In this document: positions 87 to 4,082 of the stretch, piece after piece | How the letters are laid out: every line of letters starts with the position of its first letter | Numbering within the stretch: the stretch's first letter is position 1 | Assembly (NCBI GenBank): GCA_013151235.1 | Contig: JAADIO010000059.1 | Coordinates: 1-36,324, forward strand | Source of the DNA: Deltaproteobacteria bacterium | GTDB taxonomy: Bacteria; CG2-30-53-67 | Length of the DNA: 36,324 nt | Direction of reading: 5' to 3' | Notes under the pieces: generated by a model | What the model was told of the DNA's origin: nothing | Database searches by the model: none | Seen by the model: the letters and a program-made list of their open reading frames with translations, nothing else | Position numbers and translations under genes: made by a program

Positions 87-130
87 AATCCAGAAAACGA
101 CTTTTTACGACTTCATCAAAGGAGATCCTG

Positions 131-622
131 ATGAAATTTCGTACTTTTCTGTCCATCCTCCTGTTGCTGGCCTTTGCTTCCGCCTCCCAGGCAGTCATCT
201 ATAAATGGGTAGATCATCAGGGGGTCGCTCATTTCACCGACGCCCAGGAAAAAATCCCTACGGCCTACCGGAACGAGGCGGTCGATTTCAACCGGGTCAA
301 GGCCGCGGGAAGTGTTACATACGATCCGGCCTCCGGAAAGGGTACGTCGTCACAGCCCCCATCGGTCGAGAAAGCCGCAAAAAACCCCACGGTAATTCTC
401 TACATGACCGACTGGTGACCCCACTGTACGGAAGCGAAGAGGTACTTCGCGAAGAACAATATCCCGTACAGGGAGGTCAACGTGGAAAAAAGCGAGCAGG
501 GCAGACAGGAGATGCTGCAGAAAAGCGGCGGATTCAGAGGGATCCCGTTGATCGACATCAACGGAACAATTCTGCGGGGCTTTTATCCCGACGCTGTGGA
601 ACGGGCACTGAAAGCACACTAA
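131..622 (+). CDS. Exported DUF4124-glutaredoxin selenoprotein (in-frame TGA read as Sec)
   Basis: Read through the TGA at 416-418, this frame gives 163 residues ending at TAA 620-622. Residues 1-21 are a signal peptide (cleavage after SQA). Residues 22-60 match DUF4124 (IYKWVDxxGxxHFTD). Residues 87-163 are a glutaredoxin domain: a beta strand (TVILYMTDW), the redox motif Sec96-Pro-His-Cys99, the cis-Pro segment RGIPLIDI and a closing GF plus helix. Glutaredoxins have Cys-Pro-x-Cys here, so TGA falls exactly on the catalytic N-terminal Cys. A SECIS-like hairpin follows at 434-450. The start at 131 has AAAGGAGA upstream. The likely role is thiol-disulfide exchange in the periplasm. A recent nonsense mutation is the alternative, but the 67 downstream codons are intact and conserved in pattern. 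A histidine kinase gene follows after 57 bases. An ordinary gene caller would stop at 418 and miss the catalytic half. Confidence 0.88.
434..450 (+). promoter_or_regulatory. Bacterial SECIS-like hairpin
   Basis: A perfect 6-bp stem, GCGAAG with CTTCGC, closes the five-base loop AGGTA. The stem begins 15 bases after the TGA at 416-418, and the loop GG lies 23-24 bases after it. Bacterial SECIS elements sit inside the coding sequence just downstream of UGA and expose a loop GGU read by SelB; E. coli fdhF has GG about 19-20 bases after its UGA. Geometry and loop sequence therefore fit, and the element is also coding sequence of the glutaredoxin domain. Confidence 0.8.
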
Positions 623-1771: not shown

Positions 1772-1955
1772 TCACCCGGTTTGACGAAATGCCCCTTCTC
1801 TGATTCACTATAACCGTACATGAACTCCGGCAAGGCGGAATGCCGCTATGATAACGCAAATGAAATGGGTAACAATCACCCTTGCCATGATCCTGTTGGC
1901 GGGCACGCCCTCTATCAGGGAACAAAATGCCGGGAAAAACGGAGAGGGGAAGATC

Positions 1956-4082
1956 ATGGAGACTCATGGAAAAACACCGAATCACCTAATCCGCGAAAAA
2001 AGCCCTTACCTCCTTCAACATGCCTGGAATCCGGTGGAGTGGTATCCCTGGGGGGAAGAAGCCCTCACCCGGGCAAAGAAGGAACATAAGATCATCTTTC
2101 TCTCCATTGGATATTCCACCTGTCACTGGTGTCATGTCATGGAGAAGGAATCCTTCGAAAATGAGGCGATCGCAGCCCTGCTCAACGATAATTTCATCTG
2201 TATCAAAGTCGACCGGGAGGAGCGACCCGATCTGGATCAGATCTATATGGCCGCCGTACAGGCAATGACCGGAAGCGGCGGCTGGCCGCTCAACGTTTTC
2301 CTTACACCGGATTTGAAACCTTTCGCGGGGGGGACCTATTTCCCTCCGGAGGATACACCCTGGGGGCAGATCGGAATAGAAACCCTTTTGACCCGGGTTG
2401 CCGATTTGTGGCGTGAAAATCCGGAAACGGTTGTAGAAAATGCGGAAAGATTGACACAGGCAATCCGCAACGCTCGGGAAAAAGGTCCCAGCGGCAAGAT
2501 TTCCGCCGCCTTGTCCCGGCATGCCTATGAATCAATCGCAGAAAATTATGACAACCTCTATGGAGGGTTTGGCCCGGCCCCCAAATTCCCACAGGGAATG
2601 ACCCTCTCCTTTCTGCTCCGTTATCACCACCGCACCGGAAATCCGACAGCCCTCTCCATGGTGGAAAAAACACTACAGAAGATGGCACAGGGAGGAATAT
2701 ACGACCAGTTGGGAGGAGGTTTCCACCGTTACTCCACCGACGAACGCTGGCTCGTTCCTCATTTCGAGAAGATGCTCTACGACAACGCCCTCATGGCCCA
2801 GGTCTATCTGGAGGCCTTCCAGGTCACGGGCTTTGAAAAATACTCCACAACTGCCCGTGAAATCCTTGACTATGTATTACGTGACATGACGGCACCTGCG
2901 GGCGGGTTTTACTCCGCCGAGGACGCCGACAGTGAAGGAGAAGAAGGTACCTTTTACGTCTGGACACCAAAGGAGGTAGAGGAAGTGCTGGGAAAGCAGA
3001 AAGGGAGCATCTTCAACCGGTTTTACGGCATCTCTCCCCCCGGGAATTTTACGAAAGGGAAGAGCATTCCGAACCGATGGATCGATGAAGCGAGTTTTGC
3101 CAAAGATCGGAAGATCCCCTTGACGGAACTTCGGGACATCCTCCTCCACGGGAAAAAGAGGCTGTTCCAGGCACGGACAGAGCGCGTTCGCCCCCGCCGG
3201 GACGACAAGATCCTCACCGCCTGGAATGGAATGATGATCGGCGCCCTTGCCTATGCGGCAGAGGTCCTGGATGAACCCCGCTATGCCCGTGCCGGGGAGA
3301 AGTCAGCCCGGTTTATCATGAAGAATCTTATGGAGGGGAAGGACCTCCTCCGGCGCTACCGGGACGGGGAAGCAAGATACCCCGGCTATCTTGATGACTA
3401 TGCCTTTTTTGTTCAGGGTCTGATCGAGCTCTACCAGGCCACCTTCAATCCCGAATGGATCACGACGGCCCTTTCATTAAACCGGAAAATGGTGGAGCGT
3501 TTCTACGACCCGAAGGAAGGAGGATTCTTTTTTGCCCGTGAAGAGGACCCCACCCTCCTGACCCGGAACAAAGAGTTCCACGACGGCGCCAAACCAGCGG
3601 GAAACGCCATCGCCCTGCTGAACCTCTTGCGTCTTGCAGAATTCACCGGCAGGAAGGATTTACGGGGGATGGCGGAGAAGACCTTGAAGGGGATGACGGC
3701 CGGAATCAAGGAATTTCCCGCTGCTTTCCCGCAAAGCCTGACGGCCCTGGAATTTCTCCTCTCCTCCCCCTTTGAGATTATCGTGGCGGGATCACCAAAA
3801 AATGAGGAGACCCATGCACTGATCCAGGCCGTCACCGCTCCCTTCGTTCCAAACAAAGTCGTCGCCCTGGCCGGAGAGAAGAAAAGCAATCTCGTAAAGA
3901 CACTACCCTTCCTGACGGGAAAAACAAGCATCCAGGGAATACCGGCCGTCTATATCTGCAGGAACCACACCTGTCAACGTCCCCTGACCGACCCGGTGGA
4001 GGTGGACAGAGCCATGAAAAACAGCGGAATGGTTCAGGGACCGGCCCTGCGGATCTCGATCGGAACCTCTTCGGAAAAGTGA
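1956..4082 (+). CDS. DUF255 thioredoxin-domain protein (YyaL/SPATA20 family)
   Basis: The 708-residue protein begins with the family signature ([22 protein letters not shown]) and a thioredoxin-like domain with Cys56-His-Trp-Cys59. A long alpha/alpha-barrel region resembling N-acylglucosamine 2-epimerase or glycosidase folds follows (for example [14 protein letters not shown] and SAEDADSEG). It ends with the Cys-containing motif [11 protein letters not shown]. The molecular function of the family is not established. The start at 1956 is chosen because GGAGAGGGG lies 6 bases upstream and the protein then begins as usual for the family. In-frame ATGs at 1848 and 1860 would add a hydrophobic segment ([14 protein letters not shown]) that could act as a signal peptide, so export is possible. 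Its 3' end overlaps the convergent PEP carboxykinase gene by 49 bases. Confidence 0.9.

Follow-up and report, generated by a model that had tools for sequence, protein, structure and literature searches.

The gene at positions 131 to 622 (forward strand) of the analysed DNA, a stretch of 36,324 nucleotides referred to here as the window, is very probably a genuine selenoprotein gene. Its predicted product joins an exported DUF4124 domain to a glutaredoxin domain whose first active-site residue is specified by an in-frame TGA. Incorporation of selenocysteine (Sec) is deduced by comparison, because the TGA occupies the same column in five genomes, relatives have Cys at this position, the region after the TGA evolves more slowly at the amino acid level, and the genome contains a complete Sec machinery. 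Judging from its sequence, the product is most likely a periplasmic thiol/selenol oxidoreductase.

Gene structure and domain composition

The frame that runs from the ATG to the TAA contains a single TGA, which is codon 96 and is followed by 67 codons; under the standard code the frame ends after codon 95. The following features were assigned:

119..124, + strand: possible ribosome-binding site, AAGGAG region just 5' of the ATG (read from the sequence)
131..622, + strand: whole predicted selenoprotein gene; ATG at 131, putative Sec TGA at 416-418, stop TAA at 620-622; product of 163 residues
131..193, + strand: putative signal peptide, residues 1-21, MKFRTFLSILLLLAFASASQA, with likely cleavage after SQA (read from the sequence)
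158..271, + strand: DUF4124 domain, residues 10-47 (Pfam PF13511, E 7e-10)
392..568, + strand: glutaredoxin domain, residues 88-146, spanning the TGA (Pfam PF00462, E 1e-15)
416..418, + strand: in-frame TGA, predicted Sec, residue 96, in W-U-P-H-C; 5/5 orthologues have TGA here, and Cys-type homologues have Cys
425..427, + strand: codon (TGT) of the putative resolving Cys99 of UPHC, invariant across 20 aligned homologues
434..450, + strand: SECIS-like mRNA hairpin with a 6-bp stem (GCGAAG/CTTCGC) and the loop AGGTA, fitting the bSECIS model

The initial annotation had described a DUF4124 head and, after the TGA, 67 intact glutaredoxin codons, and the Pfam matches bear out both. In the read-through protein DUF4124 scores 39.4 bits (gathering score 22), and the glutaredoxin domain, which carries the UPHC motif, scores 58 bits (gathering score 22.9), placing the protein in both families. 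A hydrophobic N-terminus followed by a cleavage site of small residues is found in all five orthologues, that of the window protein ending in SASQA. Among the NCBIfam models the nearest is GlrX_YruB (TIGR02196), a near miss at 81.6 bits against a curated cut-off of 88.55 when C is written in place of U. The protein also falls below the curated cut-offs of the UXX-star families NF041114 and NF041212 (39.9 vs 72 and 48.1 vs 66 bits) and below that of NF041211.

Conservation of the in-frame TGA

The gene is present in five of the eight genomes available for this small phylum (that of the window included). Each copy has one TGA within the match, always in the same column, and the four orthologues from the other genomes are 48-71% identical to the window protein. 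These genomes bear directly on whether a Cys codon (TGT or TGC) was turned into TGA by a fault of sequencing or assembly. The organism is known from metagenome assemblies. The genome that contains the window contig is a draft of 2.62 Mb in 73 contigs, which lends some substance to such an error; the same TGA in five separately assembled genomes refutes it, and the chance that remains is negligible. G002, another genome from this family, contains selA and selB but yielded no orthologue; the gene might be dispensable there, or it might lie in an assembly gap.

Placement of the TGA at the catalytic Cys codon of a glutaredoxin CPHC motif, as first proposed, was confirmed: the CxxC motif (YMTDW-U-PHC) has this codon at its first position, and the comparison with Cys homologues gave no refutation, Cys being found at this column in 15 of 15 homologues (L054-L068) chosen by similarity. 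When Sec is written as Cys in an alignment of 20 rows, the TGA column, W95, C99, P139 and G150 are all invariant. The count for the further rows of the domain tree (34 Cys, 11 Sec) is biased, since part of these rows was selected with a motif demanding C or U at this column. A distant protein from Legionellales (L081), aligned as 'TIPDCDTC', also has Cys at the column.

The TGA might instead be a real stop. The product would then be an exported DUF4124 protein of 95 residues, and the glutaredoxin half would be either a leftover, decaying or unused, or an ORF with a start of its own. This is how the standard code reads the frame, and many DUF4124 proteins carry other C-termini. However, all 10 pairs of orthologues show a smaller dN for the part that follows the TGA than for the part that precedes it; between the window and L051, for example, dN is 0.303 before and 0.114 after the TGA (dS 0.77 and 1.28, respectively), the comparison being of dN alone with several dS values saturated. 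Decay would give the reverse, and a decaying glutaredoxin half was rejected. The constancy of the TGA column, the Cys relatives that read straight through it, and the complete Sec machinery of the window's genome also argue against a stop at this codon, which is considered very unlikely.

Probable decoding of TGA as selenocysteine

The Sec machinery had been named in the initial annotation as a check on the reading, and all of its parts were found. The window's genome encodes selA (620 bits), selB (423 bits) and selD (370 bits), all over curated cut-offs, and a tRNA-Sec (73.3 bits, also over cut-off) that ARAGORN reports as SeC with anticodon tca. A GroEL-like frame on the minus strand beside the tRNA-Sec (L001:1727-2737) appears to finish in unrelated residues; the gene may be broken, or two pieces may have been joined in assembly.

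The selD gene has its own in-frame TGA, within SGAGUACK (L044:1531-1533), where selenophosphate synthetase usually carries its Sec. The SelD of this genome therefore looks Sec-containing, which would provide further and independent evidence that the organism decodes UGA as Sec.

Insertion of Trp, Cys or another residue, by near-cognate read-through or by reassignment of TGA, is conceivable in principle for any in-frame TGA. In the window, however, TGA is the stop codon of 10 of the 18 long ORFs, and the sister orthologue L051 itself ends with TGA; a general change of the code was therefore excluded. The position of the codon, at the catalytic Cys of a glutaredoxin motif, and the Sec machinery with its Sec-type SelD also speak against decoding other than as Sec, and we regard it as exceedingly unlikely.

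The SECIS-like hairpin

The hairpin GCGAAG-AGGTA-CTTCGC begins 15 nt past the TGA, where the initial annotation had placed it, and its loop begins 21 nt past the TGA. The bSECIS model, as quoted in PMC13188914, combines a free-energy criterion with a loop of 3-9 nt that has a G within the first two positions, a stem of 4-16 bp, and 16-37 nt between the UGA and the loop. With a 5-nt loop whose second base is G, a stem of 6 bp and a distance of 21 nt, the hairpin agrees with this geometry, to which the comparison was confined. No Rfam family matched the window at gathering score.

Although position and geometry stand, the hairpin is weak evidence in one sequence: an equal or better stem follows 60 of the 1147 TGAs of the window (5%), and for this reason a single-sequence hairpin was rejected as proof. 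Comparison between genomes gave a clearer pattern. All five Sec orthologues have six or more stem pairs at the same place, and none of the 15 Cys homologues reaches such a score. Under random synonymous recoding such a stem arises in about 22% of trials per sequence, and in all five jointly in 0.05% of trials (p ~0.0005, a figure that presumes five independent orthologues; as they are related, the true chance is higher). Where stem pairs differ, a single strand has changed (a C facing G became T, so that G-C became G-U), and no compensatory covariation was found across the five orthologues.

Structure and proposed function

The AlphaFold2 model of the protein has a mean pLDDT of 84.8, with values mostly of 95-97 in the glutaredoxin part, a disordered linker (residues 61-82) and a helix at residues 2-16. 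Both by profile and by fold the best match in the PDB is 7c10 (target-normalised TM-score 0.90, rmsd 1.2). This is cGrx1 of Clostridium (Alkaliphilus) oremlandii, which according to its authors is a native selenoprotein and has the motif U(C)PxC (PMC7642778). cGrx1 (PDB 7c10/7c12) shares with the window protein the glutaredoxin fold, the U(C)PxC active site and, on the reading preferred here, native Sec. By contrast, its deposited chain is a stand-alone glutaredoxin of 84 residues without DUF4124, and the identity is about 32%. The UXX-star/Distant Grx-like protein 1 selenoproteins (NF041114, NF041212) likewise combine Sec with a glutaredoxin-like fold (PMC13188914); there NF041114 is listed with UxxT, whereas the window protein has UxxC.

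A mechanism can be proposed on this basis. SelB, acting on the SECIS hairpin just 3' of the codon, would deliver Sec-tRNA-Sec to the UGA at 416-418, and the 163-residue product with its signal peptide would be exported, probably to the periplasm. The product has the DUF4124 module at its N-terminal end and, at its C-terminal end, a glutaredoxin near the YruB/cGrx1 type, in which Sec96 would act as the attacking selenolate and Cys99 as the resolving thiol. On exported proteins or small thiols it would most likely reduce disulfides, selenenylsulfides, sulfoxides or peroxides. As for DUF4124, one may guess that it places the enzyme or binds a partner.

Re-reduction might be carried out by a membrane protein of the CcdA/DsbD type or by a thiol, for instance glutathione. 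A DsbD_TM-type (CcdA/DsbD-type) gene and a glutathione synthetase both score over cut-off in the window's genome. Absence of glutathione was considered as a pointer to a non-glutathione reductant, and was dropped because the synthetase is present.

A ThiI-like/NFACT-R_2 gene lies upstream in 4/4 orthologous loci that have upstream sequence, a comparison that leaves aside the window locus, as the window starts 130 bases before the gene. Downstream, a DUF255 (Thioredox_DsbH) gene is found in the window and in L051, L052 and L053, with a histidine kinase gene between in the window and L051. A neighbour of thioredoxin fold is at most suggestive of redox work.

In the window (1848-4082) the DUF255 gene forms a single ORF of 744 aa. 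In L051 (3695-5898) it is divided into two overlapping ORFs in different frames, which might result from a frameshift or from an assembly error.

Sec and Cys forms among exported glutaredoxins

Exported glutaredoxins with Cys at the TGA column occur in Gammaproteobacteria, Desulfobacterota and Nitrospirota, most of them with a DUF4124 head. These Cys-type DUF4124-glutaredoxins have the same parts in the same order as the window protein (signal peptide, DUF4124, glutaredoxin), and share with it the invariant W, both Cys positions of the motif, P139 and G150. They differ in that the catalytic residue is Cys, and in that a hairpin of equal quality is found in 0/15 of those tested. At E 1e-25, no Sec form was detected among 395 genomes of Desulfobacterota (the phylum of L059).

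The initial annotation had supposed that periplasmic Sec proteins of glutaredoxin fold are uncommon. The N-terminus is indeed of export-signal type, but the protein is less isolated than this implied: in a sample of 296 Nitrospirota genomes (the phylum of L066), exported W-U-P-x-C glutaredoxins were found in six (L111, L114-L118), all six of which contain selA. Close relatives of these proteins have Cys at the catalytic position. Like the window protein they have a signal- or anchor-type N-terminus, the W-U-P-x-C motif and a related glutaredoxin domain. Unlike it, they do not form a single clade with the window's group, and the two that were scanned gave no Pfam match to DUF4124. A simple fold of the sequence after the TGA gives strong hairpins in some of the six (L114, L115) and not in others.

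The Sec glutaredoxins of Nitrospirota indicate, as far as sequences can tell, that members of the exported glutaredoxin family have repeatedly switched between Sec and Cys. The domain tree requires four Sec/Cys changes, of which at least three are forced by supported branches, although it rests on 80 columns and many of its forks are open; several gains of Sec, or gains together with losses, are both possible explanations. A broader proposal sees the exported glutaredoxins as a lineage, spread over two or more phyla, in which Cys and Sec would have replaced each other several times, together with a dedicated exported route of Sec-based reduction in which the DUF4124 head would set the partner or location; this is offered tentatively, at somewhat less than even odds.

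No mention of DUF4124 together with selenocysteine or glutaredoxin was found in the open-licence papers searched, and the consulted passages of a 2026 catalogue of prokaryotic selenoproteins have no entry for a DUF4124 Sec glutaredoxin. Sec glutaredoxins and Cys-type DUF4124-glutaredoxins are already known; the combination of Sec with DUF4124 did not turn up in those papers. With this gene an exported protein architecture that is widespread would gain a form with Sec, and a poorly known phylum would provide an example of a gene that gene-finders are predicted to truncate. Natural Sec/Cys pairs in an exported glutaredoxin would also make the benefit of Sec outside the cytoplasm testable.

Distant glutaredoxin matches, several of them with one TGA, were also observed in G080, G055, G092 and G038 (L029, L033), and are probably other Sec glutaredoxins.
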